Shown here: in pieces, positions 683-41,946 of the stretch
Layout of the letters: each line of letters begins with the position of its first letter
How positions within the stretch are numbered: position 1 is the stretch's first letter
Origin: Gammaproteobacteria bacterium
GTDB taxonomy: Bacteria > Pseudomonadota > Gammaproteobacteria > Chromatiales > Chromatiaceae
Reading direction: 5' to 3'
Assembly (NCBI GenBank): GCA_009928645.1
Contig: SACH01000002.1
Location: 1 to 64,000, forward strand
DNA: 64,000 nt
The notes under the pieces: generated by a model
Seen by the model: the letters and a program-made list of their open reading frames with translations, nothing else
Databases searched by the model: none
Told to the model about the DNA's origin: nothing
Position numbers and translations under genes: made by a program

Positions 683-1972
683 TCAGGGCTTGGCGATCTC
701 CTTCTCCGCCTCGGCCATCAGCACCGGCTGCTTCAGTTCTTCCGGCAGTTGGGTGAACTTCTTCGCCAGGGAAGGCCAGAGCAGGTTGTAGTAAAGCTCA
801 CCGCGCACCAGGACCACGTCCTTGGCGGGGATCTCGTAGCTCAGCACCCGGGTCTCGTGGGGCTTGAGACGGGTGTCGGCGCCCGCCTTCTTGGCCAGGG
901 GCGGGGATACCGGCTTGCCCTCGTCGTCCACCAGGGTCAGGAACATGTAAGCCTGGGGATCATCCTCGCTGGGGTGGCCCTTGGTGCTCTGCCAGACGAC
1001 CTCGCCCTTGCCGTTGTAGGCCATGACCTTGAGGTACATGTTCCGGAACGGGGCGCCCGTGGGCAGGATGTGGGGCTGCTGATTGGTCATGCTGACGTCG
1101 ACGGCCAGCTTGTCGCCCTTGGGCTGGGCCTTGAGGTCGAAGAGCACCGAGCGCTCGAGAATGGCCTGATCATGGCCGCCGCCCAGGGAATGGTCGCTGA
1201 GGCCGCCGGACAGGGGCATGTGGCAGGAGATGCAGGTCACCTGGGTGCGGGACTGGGCATATTCGTCGCCGGTGCCGCACAGGGCGACGCCATGGGGGTT
1301 GTTGCGCTTGTCGTGGCAGCCCATGCAGGCGTCATTGGAGCGCATCAGGCTCGGGTTACCTTCCATGGGCAGCCCGGGGATCTGCTTGCCCTCGAATTCC
1401 ACCGGTTCGCCCAAGTGGGGATTGGGCTTCTGATCGCCACCGGCGCCGGCGCCACCGAAGGGATCATCGCTGGCGGTGAGTTTGCGCAGGCCCAGGTTCA
1501 GCCCCGTGGGCGCCTGGATCTTGTCGGAGACTTCATAGGCGTTGATGCCCAGGCGCAGCTTGCCGCCTCCGGCGTCTATGCCCTTGTACTTGGCCAGGGT
1601 ATGGCAGGCCACGCAGTTGACGCCCTCGGCGTAAGCGGGTTTGGCGTCCAGTTTGGTGGTTTTGTCCCGGGCGGCGTTGGGGGCATGGCAGGCGAGACAG
1701 ATGGGGTATTGCTTATTGGCCTTGGCGACCTGGCCCTCTTCGGTCGGCGAACCCACCTCGGATTGATAGAAGGCCGCATGGATGGGGTCCTTCATCGCCG
1801 AGGACTGGGCGTGCATGGAGCCGCTCCACTGCTTGTAGATCTCCTGGTGGCAGTTTTTGCAGACCTCCGAGGAAACCTGATGGATGGGATCAGCCGCCAG
1901 GGCGCTGGTGGCGCTCAGTCCCATTAGCAGGGCCAGGGCGGCGGAAGGGATCAACCCGTGGGGTGATTTCAT
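683..1972 (-). CDS. Periplasmic pentaheme c-type cytochrome
   Basis: A 429-residue secreted cytochrome. I chose the ATG at 1972 because a Sec signal (hydrophobic run ending SALAADP) begins there and a GAGGAG lies upstream; the frame stays open to 2068. Five CXXCH heme sites are visible at about residues 38, 92, 120, 216 and 247 (CKNCH, CLACH, CVACH, CMGCH, CISCH), resembling cytochrome c554-like multiheme proteins. The last ~175 residues have no heme motif and look beta-rich. It is divergent from the octaheme HAO-like gene at 2300, so it is a good candidate redox partner. Role as electron carrier is inferred from hemes and context; the exact partner is not shown. Confidence 0.85.
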   Translation of the reverse strand: MKSPHGLIPSAALALLMGLSATSALAADPIHQVSSEVCKNCHQEIYKQWSGSMHAQSSAMKDPIHAAFYQSEVGSPTEEGQVAKANKQYPICLACHAPNAARDKTTKLDAKPAYAEGVNCVACHTLAKYKGIDAGGGKLRLGINAYEVSDKIQAPTGLNLGLRKLTASDDPFGGAGAGGDQKPNPHLGEPVEFEGKQIPGLPMEGNPSLMRSNDACMGCHDKRNNPHGVALCGTGDEYAQSRTQVTCISCHMPLSGGLSDHSLGGGHDQAILERSVLFDLKAQPKGDKLAVDVSMTNQQPHILPTGAPFRNMYLKVMAYNGKGEVVWQSTKGHPSEDDPQAYMFLTLVDDEGKPVSPPLAKKAGADTRLKPHETRVLSYEIPAKDVVLVRGELYYNLLWPSLAKKFTQLPEELKQPVLMAEAEKEIAKP

Positions 1973-2299
1973 GCTTTTTAATTTCTCCTCGTGCCTCTTG
2001 GGGGTGAGGGCAACCTGATAAAGGGCCCGATCCTTATACTTCACGCCAAAAGGCATCCCGTCAACCAAGTAGTTTAGTAAGCTATTGATTATAGATATAT
2101 AATTAAAATCTTAAATACCAATTTATTTGCCCTAAAGAAACTCTCCACGGGATAATTTGGTTGGGGTCTGCGTTGCGGCCATCTAAATTTTGCTCCCGCC
2201 CGCAGCGGACGGATCTTGCCGTAACTCCGCCGAAATTCAGACGTCATCACCGAGACAATAAAAAGGCGTCGGTCCATCACTACTGAGGAGGTAATGAGG
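1973..2299. promoter_or_regulatory. Divergent promoter region between cytochrome genes
   Basis: About 330 bases without a gene, separating two divergent multiheme cytochrome genes. The stretch near 2080-2125 is markedly AT-rich (tatagatatataatt), as expected for promoters. I found no complete FNR-type palindrome; TTGAT at about 2086 has no matching right half. A strong GAGGAGGT at 2285-2292 serves the octaheme gene. Confidence 0.35.
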
Positions 2300-3784
2300 A
2301 TGCCCGGTTCACCCATCCAGTCCAGGGCACTGACCGGCCTGGGGCTTTTGTTCTTATGCCTTGCCAGCCCCCTGTGGGCGGCCAAGGTCACCCTGGACCC
2401 CAGCAACTGGGGCCATGCGGCTGGCGAGGCCTGCGTGAACTGCCATACCAAGTCCTCCGCCGGTCTGGCCCAGGAGTGGCGGGAGAGCGCCCATGCCAAG
2501 GCCGGGGTCAACTGCATGGACTGTCACCAGGCCCAGGCGGTGGACCCGGATGCCATCAAGCACGAGGGGGAGATCATCGCCACCATCGTCTCCCCCAAGG
2601 ACTGCGCCCGCTGCCATGAGACCGAGTTCAAGGAGCAGCAGGGCTCGGTCCACGCCGAGGCCTACAGCCTGATCAAGGAGCGCATCCCGGCCATGGCCGC
2701 CAACCTGACCGGTCCCGCGGTCCAGGCCGCCGGCTGTGACCAGTGCCATGGCTCTAAGGTCAAGGTCAAGGGCGATGGCACCCTGGACCCGGAGACCTGG
2801 CCCAACTCGGGCATCGGCCGGATCAACCCGGACGGGTCCAAGGGCTCCTGCTCCTCCTGTCACGGCCGCCACCTCTTTGCCAAGGCCCAGGCCCGGGAAC
2901 CGGAGGCCTGCGCCCGCTGCCATTCCGGTCCCGATTCACCGGACGCGGAGATCTTCGCCGCCTCCAAACACGGCATGCTCTTCTCCTCGCAACGGCACCG
3001 CATGAACCTGGACGCGCCCCAATGGGTTGCCGGCAAGGACTACACCGCCGCCCCCACCTGCGCCACCTGTCACATGGGCGCCGCCGGCAAACTCCCTTCA
3101 ACCCACGACGTCGGCATGCGTAACGCCTGGGCCCTCAACGCCCCCGTATCCCAACGCCAGTATCTGGTGCTGCTCGAGGATGGCGGCAAGCTGGAGATCC
3201 CCGCCGGCTCCCCGGTCCCTAAACGGGGCGAAGAGATCGCGAAGCTCGATGGCGGCCTGACCAAGGTCAAGTCCGTCGTTACCCCGGAACGGCGCCGCGA
3301 GGCCATGAGCCTGGTGTGTCTGGAATGCCACAGTAAGCCCTTCACCCAGGGTTTCATGCGCCAGTTCGATAACCTGGTGGAGTTGTTCGACGTCAAGTTC
3401 GCCATACCGGCCAAGGGCATCATGGCCGACCTCTATGCCGGCGGCTATCTGACCCCCTTGCCCTTCGACGAACCCATCGAGTTCACCTATTGGGAACTGT
3501 GGCACGACGAGGGCGCCCGGGCCCGCCATGGCGCTTCCATGGCCAGCCCGAATCACGCCTGGTGGGAAGGGATGTATCTGGTCAGTCGCAATTTCTACGG
3601 CAAGTTCCTGCCCGAGGTCCGGCAGGAGGCGGGTTCCGAAGCCCAGGCCATCATCGACCAGCATCTGACCGAGGACGCGGGTCATGGTTGGCTGGACGCG
3701 CCTGACCAAGCCAACGCCATCCTTGGCTTTGGCACCCACTATGGCCCGCCAGCAAGTCAGGCGGGTAGCGGGGGAGATCGGTAG
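2300..3784 (+). CDS. Octaheme cytochrome c, hydroxylamine oxidoreductase (HAO) family
   Basis: A 494-residue secreted protein with eight CXXCH motifs (about residues 45, 72, 102, 146, 184, 204, 254, 340), the count and spacing of the HAO/octaheme family. The ATG at 2300 is preferred over the one at 2294 because GAGGAGGT then sits 7 bases upstream; a signal peptide ending SPLWAA follows. Known relatives either oxidise hydroxylamine or, as in epsilonproteobacterial HaoA, work reductively on nitrite or hydroxylamine with a NapC-type partner. The partner lies 2 bases downstream here, favouring quinol-linked reduction. The C-terminal family motif reads SPNHAWWEGM without a tyrosine; loss of the cross-linking Tyr would fit a reductive enzyme, but this needs an alignment. 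Confidence 0.85.
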   Translation: MPGSPIQSRALTGLGLLFLCLASPLWAAKVTLDPSNWGHAAGEACVNCHTKSSAGLAQEWRESAHAKAGVNCMDCHQAQAVDPDAIKHEGEIIATIVSPKDCARCHETEFKEQQGSVHAEAYSLIKERIPAMAANLTGPAVQAAGCDQCHGSKVKVKGDGTLDPETWPNSGIGRINPDGSKGSCSSCHGRHLFAKAQAREPEACARCHSGPDSPDAEIFAASKHGMLFSSQRHRMNLDAPQWVAGKDYTAAPTCATCHMGAAGKLPSTHDVGMRNAWALNAPVSQRQYLVLLEDGGKLEIPAGSPVPKRGEEIAKLDGGLTKVKSVVTPERRREAMSLVCLECHSKPFTQGFMRQFDNLVELFDVKFAIPAKGIMADLYAGGYLTPLPFDEPIEFTYWELWHDEGARARHGASMASPNHAWWEGMYLVSRNFYGKFLPEVRQEAGSEAQAIIDQHLTEDAGHGWLDAPDQANAILGFGTHYGPPASQAGSGGDR

Positions 3785-3786
3785 CG

Positions 3787-4416
3787 ATGGCTAACTTCTT
3801 CTCCGCCATCCCCATCACCCGTCCCATCCTGATCGCCCTGGTCATCGGCGGCCTGGGCGGCATGGCCTTCATGACCTTCCTGCTGGAGTTCGACCGCTAT
3901 ACCAGTAGCAACGAGTTCTGCACCAGTTGCCACTCCATGACCTTCATGGAGGACGAGTACCGCAAATCGGTCCATTACAACCCGGTCTCGGGGGTCCGCG
4001 CCGAGTGCGGCGATTGCCATGTCTCCGCAGGCATCTTCGCCGCCACCTGGGACCATATCAAGGGCGGCAAGGACCTGTGGAAGCAGTTCTTCGGCGCCAA
4101 TTACGACGATCCGGTCATCAGCGCCCTGCACCTGCCAGAGGCCGCCTTCGCCACCCGCCACTGGTTCCGGGAGACGGAGTCAGCCACCTGTCAACGGTGC
4201 CATGTGCTGGAGGCGATTCAGGGCAAGCGTGCCGACACCGCGGCCATACACCGGGAGGAGACCGCGGGCAAAAGCTGCATCGACTGTCACGAAAATCTCG
4301 TCCACCGCCCGGTCCCCAGCCAGGAGACCTTCAAGCGTGAGGCCTGGAACCAGATGATCGAAGAGGAGTTTGGTCTGGAACCAGGTGCGGCGGAGAAATT
4401 ATTAGCCAAATTATAA
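3787..4416 (+). CDS. NapC/NirT/NrfH-type tetraheme quinol dehydrogenase
   Basis: 209 residues with one N-terminal membrane anchor (about residues 12-32) and four CXXCH sites (CTSCH, CGDCH, CQRCH, CIDCH). This is the membrane cytochrome family that takes electrons from quinol and passes them to periplasmic reductases. It begins 2 bases after the octaheme gene, so both are surely co-transcribed, matching the HaoA-HaoC arrangement of epsilonproteobacteria. The nap operon at 31-36 kb has no napC, so this protein might also serve nitrate reduction (speculative). The membrane anchor and all four heme sites are directly visible; the partner assignment is from gene order. Confidence 0.88.
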   Translation: MANFFSAIPITRPILIALVIGGLGGMAFMTFLLEFDRYTSSNEFCTSCHSMTFMEDEYRKSVHYNPVSGVRAECGDCHVSAGIFAATWDHIKGGKDLWKQFFGANYDDPVISALHLPEAAFATRHWFRETESATCQRCHVLEAIQGKRADTAAIHREETAGKSCIDCHENLVHRPVPSQETFKREAWNQMIEEEFGLEPGAAEKLLAKL

Positions 4417-4959: not shown

Positions 4960-5418
4960 TCACCGGCTGCCCCCCCCAGTTGCACCCCGATGCTCCGCCG
5001 AGATGGGATTCTCCACGCCGAGCAGGGCGCGGATCTCGTCGAGCACCTCGGACAGTTCCTGGTAAAAGGCGGCAAGGAGGGCCGCGTTGCCGTTCTTTTC
5101 CAGCGCCGCCGCCAGTTCCTGCAACCGGCTGGCGCCGACATTACCGCTCAAGCCCTTCAGGCTATGCAGGTTACGGCGGTCCTCCGGGTTGTCGAGGTCC
5201 AGGCGCAGGTTGGCATAGGTCTGGACGAAACCGGCCAGAACCCGCTGGTACAGCGGCATGTTGCCACCCATCAGGGCCAGTCCCCGCGCCTGATCCAGGT
5301 GGCGTTCGCCCCTGTCGGCTGCCCCGGTAACATCGGGCGTGGTGCCGCCGGGCGCGGGGCTGGCTTCGGTCCGTGGGTCATGTCGTTCATCCCACTTGTT
5401 GTCATCTATGGGGTCCAT
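4960..5418 (-). CDS. HPt (histidine phosphotransfer) domain protein
   Basis: 152 residues. The ATG at 5418 is chosen because AAGGAG lies a few bases upstream; the frame is open to 5442. The N-terminal 40 residues are polar and probably disordered; the rest is a four-helix HPt fold with the phospho-accepting histidine in LHSLKGLSGNVGA (His about 85). It is the last gene of a same-strand set FIST sensor, response regulator-diguanylate cyclase, HPt, and would relay phosphate to a receiver such as the one next door. No histidine kinase is encoded nearby, so the donor is elsewhere. Confidence 0.85.
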   Translation of the reverse strand: MDPIDDNKWDERHDPRTEASPAPGGTTPDVTGAADRGERHLDQARGLALMGGNMPLYQRVLAGFVQTYANLRLDLDNPEDRRNLHSLKGLSGNVGASRLQELAAALEKNGNAALLAAFYQELSEVLDEIRALLGVENPISAEHRGATGGGSR

Positions 5419-5498
5419 GTGATTCTCCTTCAGGTGATCCATGAGTTGATCTATGTGAAAAGTCGATAGTTAACAGCAGCTTGGTAACCGAGCGGGGG

Positions 5499-6386
5499 TT
5501 ATGGCGGGATGTGGCGAAAGATGACCCGATTGCGCCCGCTGCCTTTGGCCTGATAAAGGGCTTGGTCGGCATCGTGGAGCAGCGCGTCGATGTTGCGAGT
5601 GTCCGGGGTGCGGGAGGCCAGACCGCAACTGATGGTGCAGGTCAGGGTTCCCTCTTCGAGCGGGATGGCCAGATCGGCTACCGCCTGACGGATGGTATCC
5701 ACGGCCCCCAGGACGGCATCCGGATCGGCGGAGGGGAAGAGGATGGCGAATTCCTCCCCCCCGAGGCGGCCGAGGACCGCCTCGGGGGGGAGCCGCACGC
5801 CGATGGTGTCGGCAACCAGCCGCAGGACCTGGTCGCCCACCGCGTGGCCGTGGCGATCATTCACCCGCTTAAAATGGTCGATGTCGAGCATGACCGCCTG
5901 CAAGTCCCCCGGCCCATCGAACAGGACCGCCGCCAGATCGAAGAAGCGCCGACGGTTGGCGATCCCGGTCAGGGCGTCGAGGTAGGCGAGGTCATGCAGG
6001 CGCTGCATGAGGAACTTCAACTCCAATTGGGTCTTGACCCGGGCCAGCAGTTCCCGGGGGCGAAAGGGCTTGGTGACATAGTCCTTGCCACCGACCTCAA
6101 AGGCGCGACTGATGGTGGCCTCGTCGCTCATGGCAGAGATGAAGATGACGGGGATGGCCCGGGTGCGCTCGTCGTCCTGCAACTGGCGACAGAGTTCGAA
6201 GCCATCGATGTCCGGCATCATGATGTCGAGCAGGATCAGGTCGACGAGGGAATGGTCCAGGATCCGCCAGGCACTGGCGGCGTCGGTGACATCCCGCACG
6301 TCATAGTCCTGGAGGAGACTGGTGAGAATATCCAGGTTTTCGACCTTGTCGTCGACAGCGAGGATCACCGGTGGTGAATGGTCCAT
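5499..6386 (-). CDS. Response regulator with GGDEF (diguanylate cyclase) output
   Basis: 295 residues. The receiver domain (about 8-122) carries the acidic pair near VDDK, the phospho-acceptor Asp in LLDIMMPDIDG and the conserved Lys in VTKPF. The GGDEF domain (about 130-290) has an intact GGEEF active site, so it should make cyclic di-GMP from GTP. The residues before GGEEF do not form the RxxD inhibitory I-site, so product inhibition may be absent. It sits between the FIST gene and the HPt gene on the same strand, which suggests a small phosphorelay controlling c-di-GMP. WspR/PleD-like two-domain layout. Confidence 0.93.
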   Translation of the reverse strand: MDHSPPVILAVDDKVENLDILTSLLQDYDVRDVTDAASAWRILDHSLVDLILLDIMMPDIDGFELCRQLQDDERTRAIPVIFISAMSDEATISRAFEVGGKDYVTKPFRPRELLARVKTQLELKFLMQRLHDLAYLDALTGIANRRRFFDLAAVLFDGPGDLQAVMLDIDHFKRVNDRHGHAVGDQVLRLVADTIGVRLPPEAVLGRLGGEEFAILFPSADPDAVLGAVDTIRQAVADLAIPLEEGTLTCTISCGLASRTPDTRNIDALLHDADQALYQAKGSGRNRVIFRHIPP

Positions 6387-6453
6387 GGGCTTCCCTCAGT
6401 CAATGTGATCAGGTCAGGGTGGCCGGCGTCGGGGCCGGCGGAGGAATGGGACA

Positions 6454-7650
6454 TCAAGCATTCCGGCAAATGGCATAAATGGCCGTGGTGTAGTTGTGGT
6501 ACTCGTTCTTGCCGCCCAGGCGGGCGAATTCACCGAAGCCATACATGCCGAGCCAGGGCGGGATCTCGCCATTCTTGGCCAGGGGATACTGCATGCGGCC
6601 CACCAGTTCCTCCTTCATCACCCGGTTGAAGAGGAAGCGGCCCCGGGCCAGGCAGTCGGCGTGGAAGACGGCGACCACCTCCCGCCCGCCGATCCGGTCC
6701 ACCATCTGGCCCATCATGCGGTCCATGTCGTTGAAGATGCGCTCCTCGTCGCGCACCGTCAGCCACAGGCGGGTGCCCTCGGGACAAGTGGTGGCATAGT
6801 GCATGGCCCCGTCCGGGTCGCGCTTGGTGACCACGCGCAGGATGTGCTCATTGCCGTATTCCTCCGCCAGCTTGGGCCGCAGGTGCTCCGCCAGGGCGCC
6901 GATGGGGATGGTGTCACCGCAGGTGGCGGTCTCCGGCAGGGCCAGGCGACGGGTGTACTCGCCCCAGGCCGGGCGGCCGTCGAGTTGTAGGATGCGGTTC
7001 TCCTCCGACTTGGTCACCACCATGGGCTCGCCGACGGCGACGAAGCCATGGGTGGCCTGGGTGACGACCTCCAGAGTCGGGTCGGCAAAGCCCACGGCAT
7101 AGGCGGCGTGCTCATATACCCGGTCATCGACCATCTGGAAGCTGGCGATACCCTTCATGTTGTCGGCGGAGGTGGCGCCGAAGAGGGTCACCTCGGGCCC
7201 GAACACCGACTCGATGCCGGCGATGCAGCGGTCGTCGGCGATGTCGATGCCCGAGGCCAGGAAATAGATCATGTTGACGCCAGGGTTGGCGGTCTTGAGC
7301 TGGGTGGCCAGTTCGACGGACTTCTGGTAGGAATTGTGGCCGTAGATGCCATCGACGCTGGCGACGGCGATCTCCGTCGCGCCACGCACTGCCATGATGG
7401 CCAGGTCCTTCATGGACTCGCTTACCCCCTCCTTGCCGACGACGCCACAGCAGGAGGAGCCAACGATGCGGGCGCTGGGGGCCAGGGCCTTGGCCTCGGC
7501 GATCAGTGCCCCGTAGTCGTGACCCATGGAGGCGTGGATGACCACCAGGTCGCAGTCGGTGGTGCCCTCGCCCAGGGCGGCCTCCAGGCATTCGGCCATA
7601 GCCCGGCGGGAGTTCACCATACGGGTGCTGGCGGAGAAGAATTCAAGCAT
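6454..7650 (-). CDS. FIST-domain sensory protein
   Basis: 398 residues spanning FIST N and FIST C domains; the N half begins with an alpha/beta pattern (DLVVIHASMGHDY, RIVGSSCCGVVG) and the C half holds the typical GKNEYHNYTTAI ending. FIST proteins are putative small-ligand sensors, often upstream of signalling genes. Start at ATG 7650 has GAGGA upstream. It is first in a same-strand group with a diguanylate cyclase response regulator and an HPt protein, so it is the probable input module. No membrane segment is visible, so it should be cytoplasmic. The ligand is unknown. Confidence 0.88.
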   Translation of the reverse strand: MLEFFSASTRMVNSRRAMAECLEAALGEGTTDCDLVVIHASMGHDYGALIAEAKALAPSARIVGSSCCGVVGKEGVSESMKDLAIMAVRGATEIAVASVDGIYGHNSYQKSVELATQLKTANPGVNMIYFLASGIDIADDRCIAGIESVFGPEVTLFGATSADNMKGIASFQMVDDRVYEHAAYAVGFADPTLEVVTQATHGFVAVGEPMVVTKSEENRILQLDGRPAWGEYTRRLALPETATCGDTIPIGALAEHLRPKLAEEYGNEHILRVVTKRDPDGAMHYATTCPEGTRLWLTVRDEERIFNDMDRMMGQMVDRIGGREVVAVFHADCLARGRFLFNRVMKEELVGRMQYPLAKNGEIPPWLGMYGFGEFARLGGKNEYHNYTTAIYAICRNA

Positions 7651-7890: not shown

Positions 7891-8598
7891 TCATGGCGGT
7901 CCGCGGTGCCGCAGACCGGCCAGGCGTTGCTGGAGCAGCGCCGGGGGGATGGTGATTTTCAAGGCGTCAATGCAGCGGGCGAGGCGTCGTGGATCGTCTG
8001 TCAGCCGCGTCAAGGCCGCATTCAGCGCCCGCGGCACGGCTTCGCCGTAGGCTTCTTCAGCCTTTTGCAGGGCAACCTCCCAGGTCTTTCGCGCGGGCTG
8101 CAGCATGGCAAGGTCGATGATGTCGCGACTCATTACCCCGTCATCCGCCCAGCGATCAACATTGGCGAGTAACTTGCTCGCGACAAGATCGACCTCCGTG
8201 AGCGTGGAGACCCCCCCAATTTGGTCTTGCGCTTCCGGCGTATCAAACGAGATACGTGCCTCGAAGACGATCTCGAATTTGATCGGACACAACTTCAAGG
8301 GCAAACGGGTGCGAATTCCATACTGGTCGGCGCGTATATCTGGCAGCGCCAACAAGGGCCCTCGTCCAAGTCCAAAAAAGCGCGCCAATGTCTCGCTGTT
8401 TTGTAACCCTTTGCGCATCTCGCGGTAGCAGGCCAGGTCGGACGCCAAGAAATCCATATCGACGGATTCCCGGTACTCCCCCCGCTGCATCACGATGGCG
8501 GTTCCGCCACCAAAATAACACCGCTGTTCACGCAACAGTCCGGCGTCCAGCGCGAGCAAGACTTCATGAATCCGTTGGTGATGCGGTCGCTCGAACAT
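7891..8598 (-). CDS. AbiEii-type nucleotidyltransferase toxin
   Basis: 235 residues of the nucleotidyltransferase AbiEii/AbiGii toxin family. The fold signature is the GGGTA loop (about residues 30-34) followed by an Arg and the metal-binding pair in SVDMDFLAS (Asp 47 and 49). Known family members transfer nucleotides to tRNA or other targets and block translation until an antitoxin counters them. The gene starts 3 bases after the stop of the XRE-type gene upstream, a typical toxin-antitoxin layout with the antitoxin first. Phage defence or plasmid/island maintenance is a family-level inference. The two-gene unit is flanked by a dispersed repeat and an AT-rich gap, consistent with acquisition. 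Confidence 0.85.
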   Translation of the reverse strand: MFERPHHQRIHEVLLALDAGLLREQRCYFGGGTAIVMQRGEYRESVDMDFLASDLACYREMRKGLQNSETLARFFGLGRGPLLALPDIRADQYGIRTRLPLKLCPIKFEIVFEARISFDTPEAQDQIGGVSTLTEVDLVASKLLANVDRWADDGVMSRDIIDLAMLQPARKTWEVALQKAEEAYGEAVPRALNAALTRLTDDPRRLARCIDALKITIPPALLQQRLAGLRHRGPP

Positions 8599-8601
8599 GT
8601 C

Positions 8602-9066
8602 TTAACCAAAAACCAGGCGCAGGTTTGCAATCAAGACCTGCTCCGATGGCGTGAGGGCCGCTTCATCGAGGTGGCGCGCATTTCGCTCATAGACGTCGAA
8701 CGCTTCTCGCGGCGACAGAACAACGCTCCCACCCATTTGCCAGGCAAGGGCCGCAAGCTGCGGATAATCCGCAAGCGGGATGGCCAGCGGAATTGCGTCA
8801 GTGGCCGGGCGTTCGGCTCCCCTCGCCTCCAACCCCACACCAAACCGCAGCCCGAGCACCGTCAGGGCGTTGAACCAAGCGCCAATCGTGACCGTTGTCT
8901 CACCACGCTCCATGCGATACCAGGTATCCCGTGACATACCCGATGCCGCGGCCGCGTTCTGGACGGTGACGCCCAAGGCTTTGCGACGCTGGCGCAGTTG
9001 ATGCGCCAACTCCTTCGCTCGGCGCTCCAAGGCTTCATTGGTCAATCGCTGGATGCTGGTCGGCAT
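8602..9066 (-). CDS. XRE-family antitoxin/transcriptional regulator
   Basis: 154 residues. Residues about 15-75 form a lambda-repressor-type helix-turn-helix (RRKALGVTVQNAAAASGMSR, then WYRMERGE). The C-terminal half is a variable helical segment that probably binds the toxin. It is directly upstream of the AbiEii-like nucleotidyltransferase with a 3-base gap. By analogy with such pairs it should neutralise the toxin and repress its own promoter in the AT-rich gap beyond 9066. Partner binding is inferred from gene order. Confidence 0.82.
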   Translation of the reverse strand: MPTSIQRLTNEALERRAKELAHQLRQRRKALGVTVQNAAAASGMSRDTWYRMERGETTVTIGAWFNALTVLGLRFGVGLEARGAERPATDAIPLAIPLADYPQLAALAWQMGGSVVLSPREAFDVYERNARHLDEAALTPSEQVLIANLRLVFG

Positions 9067-27465: not shown

Positions 27466-28341
27466 GTGAAAAACGGTAGCTATTTTATCCCCCGAGAGCA
27501 GCTCAATGGGTTCATGAATCCCAGTGAATTGAACAATATGGAGGGTCTCTACCTTTATTGGCAGACCGATCCCACTATCGCGCGGCGGGTAGTGCCGCCA
27601 CCGCTGGAACTGGTCACACCGGACCAGCCCCTGGCCTTTGTCTATGCCGTCAATATCCGGGAACCCACGTTCGCCCCCTGGTACATGGAGGCCGCGCTCG
27701 GGCTCATGTGCCGCTACGGTGAGACGACGGGAATCTATTTCCTCAATCTCCAACTCAGCGGCCCGGGAGCCCTGATGGCACTCTGCAGCGGGCGCGAATT
27801 CTCGGGGCTGCCCAAGAAATTGTGTGAGCGCATCCTGGTCGAACGGACCGACACGTGGGCCCATGCCCTGATCGAGAGCAAGGGCAGACGGATCTTCGAG
27901 ATCGAGGCGGAGCTTGGTGCCTACAATGACCCCTTGATGGCTCAACTCTATCAGGATGTGGGGCCGGGATGCCGCCAGCGCAGCTCCTGCCTGCTTTTCC
28001 AATATGATCCCTCCACCTTGTCCCAGGGACCCCAGGGGCAAACGACTTTTCCCAGGATGTGCCTGGTCAACTATGACAGTGCCAATGACTACCAGTCCTG
28101 GGAGCCGGGAAGCATCGCCGCGCTGCGGATGGAGCCCTCCCTCGACGATCCCTGGGCCGAGCTCACCGTCGTGAAGCCCCTGGGCGTCGGTTATGGCATC
28201 CTCTCAAACCCGGTGTTTGGCGTCTCAACCCTCGCCGAGTTTGAGGGGGAGGAGGCGGACAAGCTGTTCTCCTACCTGTTCTCCGGCCGTTGGGACCGTT
28301 CCACCCTCTGCGCGGGCCACCAGCGCTACGGTCAGTTTTAA
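27466..28341 (+). CDS. Acetoacetate decarboxylase family protein
   Basis: 291 residues starting at GTG 27466 (GAGAGG upstream). The motif GREFSGLPKK holds the family lysine (about residue 117), matching the Schiff-base Lys of acetoacetate decarboxylases, although many family members catalyse other beta-keto or aldol reactions. The N-terminal region (YLYWQTDPTIARRVVPPPLE) is the typical family opening. Last gene of the four-gene operon; its stop codon overlaps that of the convergent DsrC-fusion gene. Decarboxylation of a beta-keto acid to a ketone is the family-level expectation, unproven here. Confidence 0.85.
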   Translation: MKNGSYFIPREQLNGFMNPSELNNMEGLYLYWQTDPTIARRVVPPPLELVTPDQPLAFVYAVNIREPTFAPWYMEAALGLMCRYGETTGIYFLNLQLSGPGALMALCSGREFSGLPKKLCERILVERTDTWAHALIESKGRRIFEIEAELGAYNDPLMAQLYQDVGPGCRQRSSCLLFQYDPSTLSQGPQGQTTFPRMCLVNYDSANDYQSWEPGSIAALRMEPSLDDPWAELTVVKPLGVGYGILSNPVFGVSTLAEFEGEEADKLFSYLFSGRWDRSTLCAGHQRYGQF

Positions 28342-28979
28342 TGCTCACCCTTGGTCCGGAGCAGGCCGGCCAGGCGGTTGCCCTGCTTCTGGGGACCACC
28401 GCGCGGAAAGAGGCGGTGCAGGTAGCGGTTGCTGCCGCGTTCCGGCCCCCAGACCCGGCGGAAGTGGGCGATCATGTCGCGCACCGTGGGCTGGGTGCCA
28501 TGACGGGCGAAGCTGGCGCGGAGGAAGCGGATCACCTCCCAGTGCTCGGCGGTCAGGGCCAGGTCTTCCTCGGCGGCCAGGACCCGGGCGAAGTCCTCGG
28601 ACCATTCCGCCGGATCGACCAGGTAACCCTCGCTGTCGGTGAGCAGCCAGTTCTGGCCCACCACCACGTAGCGGGTGGTCATGCCAGGGTAGGCGTTGCT
28701 TCCCGCCGGCAGGCCCGCGGCGAAGCCACGGCTGTCCTGGTCGGCCTCGGTGATGGACCAGAGCTCGATGGGGATCTCCCCCTCCAGGCGCCCATCGAAA
28801 CGCTGCCGCCCGGATACCAGGACCCGGCCGCTGGTGGCGGGCAGGTCGAAGCGCGCCACCCCAGACCGGTCGGTCAGCACCGGCGCGGTTTCCAGGTCAT
28901 TCTCATCCAGTTTCAGGACCACCGGGGTGCGCTTGAGGGGCTCGTGGGTGGCCTTCATCGATACTTTGACGGCGATCAT
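28338..28979 (-). CDS. Beta-domain fused to a DsrC/TusE-type domain lacking both redox cysteines
   Basis: 213 residues. Residues about 112-206 clearly follow DsrC/TusE: GYLVDPAEWSEDFARVLAAE, ELT-like AEHWEVIRFLR, then GPERGSNRYLHRLFP and KQGNRLAGL. In DsrC the end reads KQACRIAGLPKPTGCV. Here the first cysteine aligns with Asn 201 and the penultimate cysteine with Glu 212, so it cannot carry sulfur as a thiol or trisulfide. Residues 1-110 form a beta-rich Ig- or transthyretin-like domain that DsrC never has. Such cysteine-free DsrC relatives (RspA-type) are thought to be regulatory. A LysR gene is divergent from it. Cytoplasmic, no signal seen. Confidence 0.8.
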   Translation of the reverse strand: MIAVKVSMKATHEPLKRTPVVLKLDENDLETAPVLTDRSGVARFDLPATSGRVLVSGRQRFDGRLEGEIPIELWSITEADQDSRGFAAGLPAGSNAYPGMTTRYVVVGQNWLLTDSEGYLVDPAEWSEDFARVLAAEEDLALTAEHWEVIRFLRASFARHGTQPTVRDMIAHFRRVWGPERGSNRYLHRLFPRGGPQKQGNRLAGLLRTKGEH

Positions 28980-31187: not shown

Positions 31188-31649
31188 CTATTTCTTGACC
31201 AACGCCTGGAAGGTGTTCTCCACCAGCGGCTCGGCGTCGGCCTGCGGGACATGGCACTGGGTACAGAAATGCCGGTTGCCGACCGGTTTGGTGTGCTTCT
31301 TGCCGTTGCGGTCGACGTAATGAGACTTGCTCATGGGCACCGATTTGGCTTCCTCATCGTCGTCCTTGGCGGCGGCCCCTTCCATGTGGCATTTCAGGCA
31401 GCCGTTTTCCTTGATATTGATCTCGTACTTTTCCGTGGTATGGGGGACCAGGGGCGGTTGATCATCGAAGTTGCGCGGGATATTTTCCTTGTCATTGATG
31501 TACTTGAACGGATCTGGTGCCGGTTCCGTGGCGGTGATAGGCAGGTCGCCGCGCAATGAATCGATGGTCGTCGCGGCTTGTCCGGGCAGGGTCGCCAGTC
31601 CGGTCAGACCGGTGAGCGCCAGGGCCAGAAGGGCTGTGGATGGCTTCAT
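31188..31649 (-). CDS. napB: Periplasmic nitrate reductase diheme subunit NapB
   Basis: 153 residues with a signal peptide (to about 25) and two CXXCH sites (CLKCH at 84, CTQCH at 129). PPLVPHTTEKYEINIKENG and MSKSHYVDR upstream of the second heme are typical of NapB, the small cytochrome that passes electrons to NapA. Its ATG overlaps the napH stop (31646-31649), showing translational coupling. Confidence 0.95.
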   Translation of the reverse strand: MKPSTALLALALTGLTGLATLPGQAATTIDSLRGDLPITATEPAPDPFKYINDKENIPRNFDDQPPLVPHTTEKYEINIKENGCLKCHMEGAAAKDDDEEAKSVPMSKSHYVDRNGKKHTKPVGNRHFCTQCHVPQADAEPLVENTFQALVKK

Positions 31650-32659
31650 GACGATACCTCCTGAGGGTGGTTGTCGCCGGTCTTGACCGGTCGGGTATTA
31701 TTAGCGTAGCGGGTGTTGTTAGCGGAGCGGGCGTTGTTAGCCGCAAGGGCGCTAACGGGGGTTATGGCGTTAACAGGGGATAGGCCGTTAACGGGGGAAC
31801 GGTCCTTATTGGCCAGACGGGTGGTGAAGGCGAAAACCTCGCGCCCGCAGACATCGATGCAGCGACCACAGTTGGTGCAGTGGCCGGAGAGGATCACCGG
31901 CCCCAGGCCCTTGTCCGCCCCCTTGAGCGCGGGCTTGATGACCTGCTGTTCCGGACAGACGGCGAAGCAGTCCAGGCAGTCGTCGCAACGCTCCCGCTGG
32001 AGGGCGCCGACCCGCACCAGGGCGAACTTGCCCAGCAGGCCATAGAAGGCGCCCACCGGACAGAGATGACCGCACCAGGCGCGCCGGCCGACGAACAGGT
32101 CGAGGAGGAAGATGGCCGCCAGGACGCCCCAGGCCAGCCCCATTCCGAAGACCAGGCCGCGGTAGACCATGGACACTGGGTTGACCAGTTCCCAGGCCAG
32201 ACCGCCGCTGATGGCCGCCAGCAGCAGGATGGCGCCCAGCAACCAATTACGGGTCTGGTCGGAGAACCGGGCCCCCCCCTTGATGCCGAGCCGGCAGCGC
32301 AGCCACTCGGCGGCATCGGTGATGGGGTTCACCGGGCAGACCCAACTGCAATAGACCCGGCCGCCGACCAGCAGATAAAAGACCAGCACGATGGCCGCGC
32401 CCATCGCGGCGTTAGCGGCCGGCATCTGGCCACTGGCCAGCACCTGGAGCAGGAGCAGGGGATCGGTCAGGGGCAGGACCTCCAGGGTCAGGCTGGAGGC
32501 CAGGTTGCCCTTGACGATCCAGACACCCAGCCAGGGTCCGGCGAGAAACAGACCCAGAATGATCAACTGGCTGAGCCGCCGCGCCAGCAGCCAGCGGTGG
32601 GCGCCTAACCAGCCCTTGCGCTGTATGGCCTCGGCACCGGGTCGACCGCCGGGTTTCAT
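31646..32659 (-). CDS. napH: Quinol dehydrogenase membrane subunit NapH with a repeat-built C-terminal tail
   Basis: 337 residues. About four to five transmembrane helices, the CPVNP and CPVGAF loop motifs of the NapH/NosR group, then two 4Fe-4S clusters (CDDCLDCFAVCP and CTNCGRCIDVCG). NapH with NapG takes electrons from quinol for NapA. After residue about 276 the protein continues as a tail of hexads (SPVN/AANN type) encoded by 18-bp tandem units at 31695-31802, which the family lacks. napG ends 39 bases upstream; napB overlaps downstream. Confidence 0.93.
   Translation of the reverse strand: MKPGGRPGAEAIQRKGWLGAHRWLLARRLSQLIILGLFLAGPWLGVWIVKGNLASSLTLEVLPLTDPLLLLQVLASGQMPAANAAMGAAIVLVFYLLVGGRVYCSWVCPVNPITDAAEWLRCRLGIKGGARFSDQTRNWLLGAILLLAAISGGLAWELVNPVSMVYRGLVFGMGLAWGVLAAIFLLDLFVGRRAWCGHLCPVGAFYGLLGKFALVRVGALQRERCDDCLDCFAVCPEQQVIKPALKGADKGLGPVILSGHCTNCGRCIDVCGREVFAFTTRLANKDRSPVNGLSPVNAITPVSALAANNARSANNTRYANNTRPVKTGDNHPQEVSS
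31695..31802 (-). repeat. Coding minisatellite, 18 bp x 6, in the napH 3' end
   Basis: Plus-strand units GTATTATTAGCGTAGCGG, GTGTTGTTAGCGGAGCGG, GCGTTGTTAGCCGCAAGG, GCGCTAACGGGGGTTATG, GCGTTAACAGGGGATAGG, CCGTTAACGGGGGAACGG. They encode hexads ending PVN, PVS or ANN. Two subtypes, TTGTTAGC and GTTAACGG, hint at two rounds of expansion. Confidence 0.85.
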
Positions 32660-32698
32660 CGCTTACCACTCCCGCGCATCAGCTCGTTATCCCCCATC

Positions 32699-33769
32699 TC
32701 AGATGCCTCCCCCACGGTTGAGGGTCTCCAGCGGATTGGCGGGGAAGGGGGAGGCCGCTTCGGGTGGCAGCGGCGGCATAAGGTCGGGCGCCAGCGCTGA
32801 CGAAGCCGGGGGGCTGAGTGAAGCGGCAGACCCCGGGGTGGAGTAGGGCGCTGGCGCGGGGGCGAGCGCCGGGGATGCTCCCTCAAGACCGCCAGGGGCA
32901 AAGGGGTCCATATGGGCGCCAGGCCCCATCGCTGGCGGCGCGGGGACGGCAGGCGCCGACGGCTCGGCGGGCAGGAGCCCCCGGCCGCCATGCTCATAAC
33001 GCATCCCTTCTGGCAGGTTGTATTGGTGCGGCGTGTCCGGAGTGACCAGGGAGCCACCCGCGTCGGCCTTCTGTTCCCAGCCCAGGCGATAGTGCTGGCC
33101 CAGCAGACCCTTGGCGAGGGCGATGGGCAGGACCTTGATCGCCGCCTCGTCGAGGATGCAGGCCTTTTCACACTTGCCGCAGCCAGTACAGTCCTGGGAG
33201 TGGACCACCGGGATGAAGAGGGCATGCTTGCCGCTACGGGCATTGTGCTGCTTGTTGAGGCTGATGGCCTTGCCGCGCACCGGGCAGATGTTGAAGCAGA
33301 CCTCGCAGCGCAGGCCCTGGAAGGCAATGCAGGACTCCTGATCGATGAGTACCGCCAGCCCCATCCGCGAGTCCTCGATCCGCGTCAGCCCCGGGTCCAG
33401 GGCCCCGGTGGGGCAGGCCTTGACGCAGGGCAGGTGGTCGCACATCTCGCAGGGGATGTCGCGGGCGACGAAATAGGGCGTGCCCAGGGCGACCTCATCA
33501 CCAAGCTGGGCCAGCTTCAGGGTGTCATAGGGGCAATCGCGCACGCACAGGCCGCAGCGGATGCAGGCCCCCTGAAACAGGGCCTCGTCATCCGCCGCCC
33601 CCGGCGGGCGAATGGCGGTGGCGGGCAAAGCCCGCGCCTGGCGCTGCTGGACGCCCACCACGCCCGCGACCAGGCCGACACCGGCGAGAGTGCGCAGGCC
33701 GTCCGTCAGCCAGCGCCGCCGTCTGGGATCAAAGCCCTTTCCGCCCTTCTCATTGCCGGTCATGGCCAT
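32699..33769 (-). CDS. napG: Periplasmic ferredoxin-type NapG with a long Pro/Ala-rich tail
   Basis: 356 residues; usual NapG is about 230-260. A twin-arginine leader ([15 protein letters not shown]) is followed by four 4Fe-4S motifs: [35 protein letters not shown] and [12 protein letters not shown]. It relays electrons from NapH to the NapAB complex. Residues beyond about 265 are a Pro/Ala/Ser-rich low-complexity extension with no known counterpart, probably disordered in the periplasm. Starts 25 bases after napA ends. Confidence 0.93.
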
Positions 33770-33794
33770 GGGCTCCCGCCCCGGCTCCTGGTCC

Positions 33795-36338
33795 TTAGGC
33801 CTTCATCACCTTCACCGCCACCTTCTTGAAATCCGTTTCTTTCGACAAGGGGTCGGTGGCATCGAGGACCAGCTTGTTGATCAGGCGACTGGCGTCGAAG
33901 AAGGGGACGTAGACCATGCCCTCGGGCATCTTGTTGCGCCCCTTGGTCTCCACCCGGCAGATGACCTCGCCGCGGCGGCTGGCGATCTTGGCCGCGTCGC
34001 CGCGCTTAAGGCCGCGCTTCTCCGCGTCCTCTGGATTCATGAACACCTGGGCGTCGGGCACAGCGCGGTAAAGCTCAGGGACGCGCCGGGTCATGGAGCC
34101 GGAGTGCCAATGCTCCAGCACCCGGCCGGTGGACAGCCACAGATCGTATTCCTGGTCCGGGGACTCCGCCGGCGGCTCGTAGGGGGCGGTGATGATATTG
34201 GCCTTGCCATCCGGGTTGCCGTAGAAGGCCACCTTGGCGCCCTTGGGGACGAAGGGGTCGTAACCTTCGCGATAGCGCCACAGGGTCTCCTTACCCTTCA
34301 CCACCGGCCAGCGCATGCCGCGCACCTTGTGGTACTGGTCGAAGCTGGCCAGGTCGTGACCCTTCTTCGGCCCCTCCAGGCCGAAGATGCGGTACTCCTC
34401 GAACAGACCCTTCTGCAGGTAGAAGCCGAAGGCCTCCATCTCGTCATTGGGATAGACATTGCCCCGGTCGTCCTTCACCTTCTGCTTGGCAAACCTATTG
34501 ACCGCCCCATTGGCGAACAGCACCTCGTACAGGGTCTTGCCGCGATACTGCGGATTCTTCTCCAGCAGTTCCTGGGGCCAGACCTCGTCGGTCTTGAAGC
34601 GCTTGGAGAACTCGACGTACTGCCACAGGTCGGACCGACTCTCGCCCGGGGCCTTGACCTGCTGCCGCCACAACTGGGTGCGGCGCTCGGCGTTGCCAAA
34701 ACCGCCCTCCTTCTCGGTCCACATGGCCACCGGCAGGATCAGGTCCGCGGCCATGGCGGAGACGGTGGGGTAGGCCTCGGAGACCACGACGAAGGCAGCC
34801 GGGTTGCGCCAGCCGGGGTACATCTCCTCGTTGATGTTGGGCCCGCACTGCATGTTGTTGGTGGTGCTGGTCCAGTAGCAGTTGAGCTTGCCGTCCTTGA
34901 GCATGCGGCTCTGCAACACGGCGTGATAGCCGATCTTGCCCGGCAGGGTGCCCTCGGGGAGTTTCCACACCTTTTCGGCGTAGTCCCGGTGCTCCTTCTT
35001 TTCCACCACCATGTCCGCCGGCAGCCGGTGGGCGAAGGTACCGACCTCCCGGGCCGTGCCGCAGGCCGAGGGCTGGCCGGTGAGGGAGAAGGGCCCGTTG
35101 CCCGGCTCGGAGATCTTGCCGGTGAGCAGGTGGACGTTGTACATGAGGCCGTTGACCCAGACCCCGCGCACGTGCTGGTTGAAGCCCATGGTCCAGTAGG
35201 AGACCACCTTCTTCTTGGGGTCGGCGTAGAGCTTGGCCAGGCGCTCCAGGCTCTCCACCGGCACCCCGGACAGCTCGGACACGTATTCAGCGGTGTAGGG
35301 CTCCAGGGATTTCTTGTAGTCCTCGAAGCTGATCTTGGTCAGGTTGCCCTTGGCCGGGTTCTTGGCCGCCTTCTCCAGGGGGTGATCCGGGCGCAGGCCA
35401 TAACCGATGTCGGTGGGCGTGGTATTGAAATTGACGTGGGCGTTGACGAAGTCCCAGTTCACCTGGTCGTTGCTAACGATGTAATTGGCGATGTAGTTGA
35501 GGATCGCCAGGTCGGTCTGGGGCTTGAAGATGACGCCGTGGTCCGCCAGCTCGAAGCTGCGGTGCTCGAAGGTGGAGAGGACGTGGACCTCGCAGCCCTC
35601 CTTGGTCAGGCGGGTGTCGGTGAGGCGCGACCAGAGCACCGGGTGGTTCTCCGCCATGTTCGCCCCCCAGAGGACGAAGGCGTCGGCCTGCTCCAGGTCG
35701 TCATAGCAGCCCATGGGCTCGTCGGCGCCAAAGGCGCGCATGAAGCCCACCACGGCGGTGGCCATGCAATGCCGGGCGTTGGGGTCGATATTGTTGGAGC
35801 GGAAGCCGGCCTTGTAGAGCTTGGCGGCGGCATAGCCCTCGTAGATGGTCCACTGGCCGGAGCCGAACATGCCCACCCGTGAGGTGACCTCCTCCGGCGG
35901 CTTGCCCTTGTTCTCCTCCAGGCTCTGCTGGATGGCCGCCTTCCACTTCTCCGCCATGAGGTCGAAGGCCTCGTCCCAGGACACCGGCTCGAACTGGCCC
36001 TCCTTGTCGTACTTGCCATCCTTCTTGCGCAGCAGCGGCTGGGTCAGCCGGTCCTCGCCATACATGATCTTGGACAGGAAGTAGCCCTTGATACAGTTCA
36101 GGCCGCGGTTGACCGGGGCGTCGGGATCACCCTGGGTCGCCACCACCCGCCCGTCCTTGGTGCCCACCAGCACCGAGCAACCCGTGCCGCAGAAGCGGCA
36201 GGGGGCCTTGTCCCAGCGGATGTCCTTGTCCTCCTTCTTCGCGGCGGCGGCCGCCACGCCTGGCAGCGCCAGCCCAGCCGCGGCGGCGGTCGCGGCGATA
36301 GCATTGCATTTAATGAATTCCCGACGGGTCTGGTTCAT
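33795..36338 (-). CDS. napA: Periplasmic nitrate reductase catalytic subunit NapA
   Basis: 847 residues, close to the usual length. Twin-arginine leader ([14 protein letters not shown]), then the 4Fe-4S site CRFCGTGC with a fourth Cys near residue 82, and the molybdenum-ligating cysteine region [15 protein letters not shown] (about 185-198). It reduces nitrate to nitrite in the periplasm at bis-MGD molybdenum. The C-terminal beta domain ends with [16 protein letters not shown], typical of NapA. ATG overlaps the napD stop (36335-36338). Confidence 0.97.
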
Positions 36339-36646
36339 GGCGCTGTCTCCTGGGATGGCGATACGTTATCGTTGGCCTGGCCGGATCCGATGACGGACGC
36401 GGGGCCGTTATCGTTATCAATCTGATGGTAGACGAGGGAAGCAGCGGCAACCCCGGGGAGGGTCGCCAGATGATTCATGAGGTCGGCGCAATGGGCGGAG
36501 GAGAGACCTTCGACGGTGACGACCAGGCGGCCGCCCTCACGGGCATGCAGTTCCACGCCGCCGAACTCCCGCAGCGCCAAGGCTACCTGCGGGGCCCGTT
36601 CGGGGTGAGTCATCAGTAGGACGCCACAGACGTGATATTCGTCCAT
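36335..36646 (-). CDS. napD: NapA maturation chaperone NapD
   Basis: 103 residues. The ferredoxin-like NapD fold is recognisable from [13 protein letters not shown] and the VTVEGLSSA strand; it binds the NapA twin-arginine leader and prevents premature export. The final ~25 residues (after HQID) are a polar extension. First gene of the nap operon, which lacks napC and napF; NapGH therefore must supply electrons. An FNR-type palindrome lies about 85 bases upstream of its start. Confidence 0.9.
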
Positions 36647-39043: not shown

Positions 39044-40150
39044 TTACAACAGATCTTCACTCCGGAGATTTCGCTCGGCGTAGGCGGCGCCAATGTCACG
39101 CAACAGGGGGATCAGCTTGAGGTTATCGATGTCGAACCCGGTTCTGGTGACTTTCCGGGCCAGGGCGATCTGTTCGGCGGAGAAGAGCAGGTTGTAGCGC
39201 AGATAGGTGAAATGGTTGCCTGAGGCCTCGCCTCGAATGTTGCTTGGGTTGGCTCCAGCCCCCCCGTCCTTGAGATCCCCGATCTCACAGTCGATCTCAT
39301 CGCCGAACCGGCACTGGCCGAGGACCCGACACAGCAGGTCCTGTTGCAGGCTGGAGGAGTCGATGAGGGCCACCGGCACGCGGCGGGCGTGAAAGAGCAG
39401 GCTCATCTCCTCCGCCGTGGCCGTACCGGAGGTCACGCGCACCCGTCCGGTGCCAATCGAGACCAACAGCAGCTTATCCAGGCCCCGTTCCCATTCCAGG
39501 TGAAAACAAGGCAGGGTCGCCATGAGATAGAGGAGCAGGCTGGGGTTGTTGTAGGGCGTGATGCCACCATCCACGAAGACCTGCTGGCGGCCGCCGAGGA
39601 CAATGGTTTCCGGGGGGAAAAAGGTCGGGGCGGCGGTGCTGGCCCGCACCAATTGCCACAGGGGGATGCGCAGGTTGCACTCCGGCGAGGCGGGGTCGTT
39701 GAATTTGGCGGCGGGGTTGTTGGAGATCGGCCAGGGTGAGCCGGTGGAATAGTTGCGCATCACCAGGCACAGCAGGGTGCGCAGTTTGCGGGTGCCCAGC
39801 AAGGCCGGCACCCGGCCCGCTTCATCTTCAGCGAAAACCTCCTTGAGCATGCCGGTAATGGCCTCCGCGGCATACTTGCTCTGCCAGCGTTTGTACCAGG
39901 GTGCGGGCCGGAAGATGTCCATCCCCCGGCGGATGTACAGGTCCTCAATCTCCGCCACCGGCATGCCCCAGGACAGGCAAGTGGCGATGATGCCGCCGGT
40001 GCTGGTTCCGGCGATGTAGTCGAAGTAATCCCCCAGGACCATATTGGGCTTACCGGTCTTGGCGCGCAGCATTTCCTCCATCCGCGCCAGGACCTCCAGG
40101 GTGAAGATGCCGCGGATGCCGCCACCATCCAGGGCCAGGAGTCGTTTCAT
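39044..40150 (-). CDS. Patatin-like phospholipase
   Basis: 368 residues. All patatin landmarks are visible: the glycine-rich oxyanion stretch DGGGIRGI (8-15), the nucleophile elbow GTSTGG (Ser about 50) and the catalytic DGG (about 192). It should cleave acyl chains from phospholipids; no signal peptide, so it acts from the cytoplasm. Its start lies 32 bases after the stop of the SLOG-transmembrane gene, so the two form an operon. Patatins are common effectors in bacterial immune systems such as CBASS (CapV), which supports a role as membrane-damaging effector here (inference). Confidence 0.9.
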   Translation of the reverse strand: MKRLLALDGGGIRGIFTLEVLARMEEMLRAKTGKPNMVLGDYFDYIAGTSTGGIIATCLSWGMPVAEIEDLYIRRGMDIFRPAPWYKRWQSKYAAEAITGMLKEVFAEDEAGRVPALLGTRKLRTLLCLVMRNYSTGSPWPISNNPAAKFNDPASPECNLRIPLWQLVRASTAAPTFFPPETIVLGGRQQVFVDGGITPYNNPSLLLYLMATLPCFHLEWERGLDKLLLVSIGTGRVRVTSGTATAEEMSLLFHARRVPVALIDSSSLQQDLLCRVLGQCRFGDEIDCEIGDLKDGGAGANPSNIRGEASGNHFTYLRYNLLFSAEQIALARKVTRTGFDIDNLKLIPLLRDIGAAYAERNLRSEDLL

Positions 40151-41658: not shown

Positions 41659-41946
41659 CGAGGCGAAGGCGCGGGGATATTGTGGCGCGGGGCTCACACA
41701 TCATCGACGAAAAAGGGTAGCAGGAAAAGCCGACCCTTCTCCGCGCCAGGCCGGGGTGTTTGACCGGCCCTGCCGGCCAGGCTTCTGCTGGTCTGACGCC
41801 GTCCTATCCCCTTCAACCCGTCCCGCCACGCGCCAGGCTCTGAACTTTGGCCTATCCTATCTTTCTAGAAGAGGCGATTCTCTTCCCTCGCCGAAACGGC
41901 TTCCTTTCCACGCTCCCCACCTTCTCCGCCTTCCTCTGGTGTGCCG

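Follow-up and report, generated by a model that had tools for sequence, protein, structure and literature searches.

A conserved octaheme, tetraheme and pentaheme cytochrome gene set of purple sulfur bacteria with a distal-His-less octaheme of the HAO family

Gene organization of the locus

The subject of this analysis is a locus for multiheme cytochromes in a 64,000-nucleotide stretch of DNA, hereafter the window, from a gammaproteobacterium of the family Chromatiaceae (GenBank assembly GCA_009928645.1, contig SACH01000002.1, positions 1 to 64,000). The genome carries reaction-centre genes, and the organism is therefore a phototroph. At positions 683 to 4416, this purple sulfur bacterium carries three conserved genes for heme-rich proteins: a pentaheme, an octaheme, and a NapC-type tetraheme cytochrome. 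The octaheme/tetraheme pair named in the initial annotation was confirmed by eight and four CXXCH motifs and by matches to PF13447 and PF03264, respectively. The tetraheme open reading frame begins 2 bp past the octaheme stop codon on the same strand, and the pentaheme gene is transcribed divergently from this pair. The features of the locus are as follows.

683–1972 (minus strand): pentaheme c-type cytochrome, 429 aa from the ATG at 1972 (the open reading frame opens with TTG at 2068); five CXXCH motifs, PF13435
1973–2293 (no strand): divergent intergenic region of 321 bp between the pentaheme and octaheme genes, a probable shared promoter region judged from the divergent arrangement
2294–3784 (plus strand): octaheme cytochrome c of the HAO family, subfamily A, 496 aa; eight CXXCH motifs, PF13447
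2933–2938 (plus strand): Asp214-Ser215, the equivalent of Asp267-His268 in N. europaea HAO with His replaced by Ser; gap-free alignment
3137–3139 (plus strand): Asn282, aligned with Tyr334 of N. europaea HAO, Arg in most relatives; alignment
3539–3565 (plus strand): Met416...Trp424, the epsilon-Hao signature, with Trp at the cross-linking Tyr site of oxidative HAO; alignment
3787–4416 (plus strand): membrane-anchored tetraheme of the NapC/NirT/NrfH family, 209 aa, a probable quinol dehydrogenase partner; four CXXCH motifs, PF03264

Family and fold of the octaheme

The octaheme combines eight CXXCH motifs with the HAO fold and belongs to the HAO family. It matched PF13447 at 92.6 bits (Pfam cut-off 21.9), and the nearest solved octahemes by sequence were IhOCC of Ignicoccus hospitalis (4qo5), Kuenenia kustc0458 (6h5l), a Brocadia HAO-like protein, and N. 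europaea HAO. Structural prediction with AlphaFold from 91 homologues yielded a model with a pLDDT of 91.5, which replaced a 17-sequence model with a pLDDT of 62. The top 11 Foldseek matches of this model were all members of the HAO family (E ≤ 1.8e-10), with 4qo5 ranked first (E = 2.4e-21), and OTR, MccA, and NrfA gave no convincing match. Membership in the OTR, MccA, or ONR groups was ruled out by Pfam and fold. A canonical oxidative HAO was likewise ruled out, as the octaheme has neither the cross-link Tyr nor the distal His.

Structural variations of the active site

The sequence alignment showed that the octaheme carries Met416-ASPNHAW-Trp424 where five HAOs of the type found in ammonia-oxidizing bacteria carry His...Tyr. 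Trp was aligned with the cross-link Tyr (Tyr467 in N. europaea) whether the one-residue gap was set before or after it, both candidate residues being Trp. The lack of Tyr in the SPNHAWWEGM motif, which the initial annotation had noted with the reservation that alignment might still reveal a cross-linking Tyr, was thus upheld. Across the clade, Met416 was conserved in 91/91 and Trp424 in 90/91 sequences. The Met/Trp pair, with Trp at the Tyr site and Met eight residues earlier, has been described as typical of epsilon-Hao (PMC8940962). A study of 2025 inferred that, outside anammox bacteria, the Tyr-less, reductive form makes up most of the HAO family (PMC12758564). The near-invariance of the pair and that survey indicate that Tyr loss is a common state of the clade and no peculiarity of the window octaheme.

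The distal pocket sets the window octaheme apart. Nitrifier HAO has a distal Asp-His pair (D267-H268 in N. europaea), and the octaheme has Asp214-Ser215 instead. In the HAO structures, H268 and Y334 sit in the heme 4 distal pocket. The distal site follows the heme-6 motif, and 17 residues separate the CXXCH His from the end of SKHG in both the window octaheme and N. europaea HAO, so that no gap is needed to align Ser215 with His268. At this position, Ser was found in all 22 sequences of subfamily A and His in 68 of the 69 others; the one remaining sequence, from an IhOCC relative, has Val. Position 282 was Asn in 21/22 subfamily A sequences and Arg in 61/69 others, and position 217 was the sole further residue fixed differently in subfamily A at the 90% level. 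Subfamily A keeps Asp214, the eight heme motifs, and most of the His residues that lie outside the motifs.

Phylogeny and the second octaheme

The same genome encodes a second HAO-family octaheme, paralogue B (G000:C485:14177-15706; L002, L046), which is 45% identical to A. The two form sister clades; in contrast to subfamily A, B retains Asp-His and adjoins neither a NapC-type nor a pentaheme gene. In the IQ-TREE phylogeny, A and B together were supported at 100/100 and B at 100/100, whereas A itself received just 65.8/78. The A+B clade was joined with four clade-C sequences (support 92.7/100), which are Desulfuromonas/Geobacter-like in FastTree. On this topology, the loss of His in subfamily A appears to be derived and separate from that in IhOCC. 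Subfamily A is a widespread His-less variant within the known HAO family, and a pentaheme is its fixed partner.

Another clade of HAO-like octahemes (L086–L093), from other gammaproteobacteria, has Pro-His in place of Asp-His and neither Trp nor Tyr at the cross-link site. Some genomes with octahemes of this type show a second PF13447 match approximately 1 kb away.

Conservation of the gene set and its partner proteins

Of 30 complete neighbourhoods of subfamily A, 29, covering 22 genera, contained the pentaheme, octaheme, and NapC-type genes together; the sole exception (G012) is without the pentaheme. The NapC-type gene comes after the octaheme in every complete locus, and the divergent pentaheme/octaheme arrangement was found in 23/29 loci. 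At 80 related octaheme loci of other phyla, no c552-type pentaheme was found, and just distant NapC relatives (28–29%) follow some Photobacterium-/Neiella-type octaheme genes. The initial annotation had regarded the pentaheme as separate and divergent. It is divergently transcribed; however, it is a conserved partner and not divergent in sequence.

The tetraheme scored 131 bits against PF03264 (NapC/NirT; cut-off 24.1) and has an N-terminal hydrophobic helix, in agreement with the membrane-anchored tetrahemes of approximately 200 aa that make up the NapC/NirT/NrfH family. The pentaheme, with five CXXCH motifs, is similar over its full length to T. tepidum cytochrome c552 (PDB ID: 5ze8; 62% identity over 414 aa, phmmer E = 1.6e-178), which places it in the same family. 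The structure of this T. tepidum c552-type cytochrome has been solved, and it is not known to have an assigned role. T. tepidum c552 is described as a lone soluble cytochrome, whereas the window pentaheme is tied to the octaheme/NapC pair. The pentaheme is orthologue-like to T. tepidum c552 and is the probable electron carrier of the system. A relationship between the c552 fold and the nanowire cytochrome AvECN has been reported (PMC11976967).

An OTR gene (PF11783) was located within 6 kb of subfamily A in 28 genomes of seven genera, compared with a chance expectation of approximately 0.003 per genome. It was accompanied by cytochrome b561 in L040, L041, L044, and L045, with five co-directional genes in L040. 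In the window genome, OTR does not adjoin subfamily A. An octaheme/b561 pair of A. vinosum is reported to be up-regulated on sulfide, and the homologous pair to be conserved in purple sulfur bacteria (PMC6374484); this pair may correspond to the OTR/b561 pair beside subfamily A. Enzymes of the OTR type are reductases of nitrite, hydroxylamine, and tetrathionate (PMC6449678), and an OTR neighbour alone therefore cannot decide between a nitrogen and a sulfur substrate.

Comparison with known octaheme systems

The closest known systems are the epsilon-Hao proteins of reverse HURM (Nautilia, Campylobacter), which resemble subfamily A in their eight hemes, in the replacement of Tyr by Trp with a Met eight residues before it, and in a tetraheme partner from the NapC superfamily (PMC2628731, PMC8940962). 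The octaheme shares the Met416/Trp424 signature and the NapC/NrfH-type partner with them but not the kept distal His. This His is retained in the epsilonproteobacterial sequence L126, which together with published motifs represents epsilon-Hao here, and in clades B and C, whereas subfamily A has Ser. Subfamily A further differs in its position within the A+B clade, apart from L126, in the addition of a pentaheme c552 to the partner set, and in that no Hcp was found in the window genome.

IhOCC (Igni_0955, 4qo5) was the best profile and fold match and lacks both Tyr and the distal His (Val in IhOCC); however, it is only about 33% identical to the octaheme and lies on a separate branch. The orange octaheme BOGUAY_0691 of Beggiatoaceae is, like subfamily A, an HAO-like octaheme of a sulfur oxidizer, and it has nitrite reductase activity (PMC6449678). 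In contrast to subfamily A, it falls in clade C with Asp-His, judged by its Thiomargarita/Thioglobus relatives, and napAB adjoins its gene.

Predicted function as a quinol-linked reductase

The explanation that we prefer, and on which our confidence is evenly balanced, is that the octaheme is a quinol-linked periplasmic reductase of the Tyr-lacking, epsilon-Hao/IhOCC-like HAO branch and a neofunctionalized variant of that kind, with an N-oxide as its likeliest substrate. We infer an electron path in which the NapC-type tetraheme would draw electrons from the quinol pool and hand them to the octaheme, either directly or via the pentaheme c552. The octaheme would then reduce a small oxidized substrate at an unlinked heme 4, with nitrite, hydroxylamine, or NO as the likeliest candidates; in a phototroph of sulfidic habitats, the system may serve detoxification or act as an electron sink. 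Based on the replacement of the distal His by Ser and of the neighbouring Arg/Tyr by Asn, subfamily A probably differs from paralogue B in substrate preference or rate.

The points for a reductase are the HAO fold, Trp in place of Tyr together with the invariant Met, IhOCC as the nearest solved relative, the NapC partner, the rarity of NrfA, and the OTR neighbour. IhOCC reportedly reduces nitrite and hydroxylamine. An N-oxide is favoured because of this reported activity of the nearest solved relative and because a relative from sulfur-oxidizing Beggiatoaceae has nitrite-reducing activity (PMC6449678). NrfA (E ≤ 1e-40) was absent from the window genome and detected in just 8 of 210 genomes of the order, and owing to this rarity the octaheme cytochromes are plausible nitrite reductases in the order.

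Several results weigh against this explanation. The first concerns direction, which the initial annotation had called reductive rather than oxidative. The Met/Trp signature, the kinship to IhOCC, and the quinol-dehydrogenase-type partner gene agree with that direction; however, Tyr loss alone is weak evidence for it, because the Tyr-lacking Beggiatoa orange octaheme showed hydroxylamine and hydrazine oxidase activity in addition to nitrite reductase activity in vitro (PMC6449678). In addition, the fixed change from His to Ser would also be compatible with another reaction or with no activity at all. No recurrent nitrogen gene was found beside subfamily A, and Hcp was not found in the window genome (assembly 92% complete) or in three genomes of the same genus. 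FNR/NNR-like boxes (≤1 mismatch) occurred upstream of the octaheme in 7/29 subfamily A loci compared with 0.9 in shuffles, and none was present in the window's own locus; being weakly enriched over the set and absent from the window, they were not used as a conserved promoter motif. Finally, within genera subfamily A does not track napA (z = −0.06).

The last result bears on the nitrate ammonification or nitrosative detoxification that the initial annotation had suggested from a nearby nap cluster; the link of the window octaheme to nap was not supported. The nap cluster (31188–36646, minus strand) contains napA, napG, napH, and napB by NCBIfam and probably napD by position, and lies 27 kb from the octaheme locus. 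No napC was found within it, and in principle the NapC-type gene at 3787 might have a role for this cluster as well. Of the 210 genomes of the order, 96 have A, 55 have B, and 130 have napA. These presence lists rest on E-value thresholds and were transcribed from result tables; many of the genomes are incomplete, and only nitrate reductase of the Nap type was scored. Within genera, paralogue B tracks napA (z = 4.0), and in several genomes, among them G120, G156, G180, G182, G048, and G004, napA or hcp lies no more than approximately 12 kb from B. Because B and not A tracks napA, nitrite reduction following Nap, as a step of nitrate ammonification, fits B better than A. Of the reverse-HURM set, which consists of Nap, a reductive Hao with a quinol partner, and Hcp, the first two are present in the window genome and Hcp was not found; a full ammonification route of this type is not evident there.

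Alternative explanations

A further reading, possible but on balance doubtful, is that subfamily A is a neofunctionalized octaheme that lost its distal His after an A/B duplication. It would then form a multi-cytochrome respiratory unit of purple sulfur bacteria with c552, NapC, and, in some genera, OTR/b561. In place of the nitrite or hydroxylamine used by other HAO-type enzymes, its substrate might be a sulfur oxyanion or an acceptor outside the cell.

We consider it unlikely that the octaheme, NapC, and c552, with OTR and b561 in some genera, constitute a sulfur-oxyanion module for the reduction or disproportionation of tetrathionate, sulfite, polysulfide, or a comparable compound arising from sulfide oxidation. 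The OTR genes near subfamily A in 28 genomes of seven genera, the five co-directional genes in L040, and the reported sulfide response and conservation of the octaheme/b561 pair homologous to that of A. vinosum (PMC6374484) argue for such a module, as do the restriction of all hosts in the order search to the purple sulfur bacteria family and its relatives and the uncoupling of subfamily A from napA. However, OTR reduces nitrite and hydroxylamine as well, it is not adjacent in the window genome, and the octaheme itself is of the HAO type and not of the OTR or MccA type.

A non-enzymatic role, in which the His-less octaheme would relay electrons between the NapC-type quinol protein and a c552 of nanowire-related fold, is in our judgement quite improbable. 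It would accommodate the changes of His to Ser in 22/22 and of Arg to Asn in 21/22 subfamily A sequences and the constant pairing with c552, reported as related to AvECN (PMC11976967). Nevertheless, Asp214, the eight heme motifs, and most non-motif His are conserved, and no outer-membrane porin or large secreted multiheme protein was noticed beside the octaheme. IhOCC, which also lacks the distal His, is reportedly active.

NapC-family proteins run in the oxidative direction in nitrifiers, which counts in favour of a hydroxylamine, NO, or hydrazine oxidase passing electrons via the tetraheme to quinone. We regard such an oxidase as very unlikely: the Beggiatoa orange octaheme, a member of the Trp clade by its relatives, oxidized hydroxylamine and hydrazine (PMC6449678), but the cross-link Tyr and distal His are both absent from the window octaheme, no hydroxylamine source was seen, and AMO was not found in a search without a positive control.

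Other genes in the window

Beside the cluster, positions 4960–7650 (minus strand) encode a small protein of 160 aa, a response regulator-GGDEF protein, and a FIST-domain protein with a weak match to NosP (48.7 bits, cut-off 450); these genes are not conserved in the same-genus locus L032. A DsrC-like protein with an extra N-terminal stretch (28338–28979, minus strand) is encoded fairly near the nap genes. Possible defence genes include a homologue of a CBASS-type patatin phospholipase, below the curated cut-off (39044–40150, minus strand), and an AbiEii-type toxin gene adjoining a helix-turn-helix gene (7891–9066, minus strand), which may alternatively be a toxin-antitoxin pair. The window also contains a gene for a STAND NTPase of 1714 aa with WD40 repeats (nSTAND1; 41941–47085, plus strand).

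Implications for the HAO family

Three observations go beyond the initial annotation: the constant partnership with the pentaheme, the presence of Ser at the distal His site throughout subfamily A, and a second, His-bearing copy in the genome. A solved c552-type cytochrome now has a place in a fixed gene set, beside an octaheme and its probable quinol dehydrogenase partner, which makes its role testable. Two octaheme paralogues that annotation would lump together as hydroxylamine oxidoreductase or nitrite reductase can be told apart, and the His-bearing one follows nitrate reductase, whereas the His-less one does not. Subfamily A is a natural active-site variant for probing the distal His in reduction versus oxidation by the HAO family.

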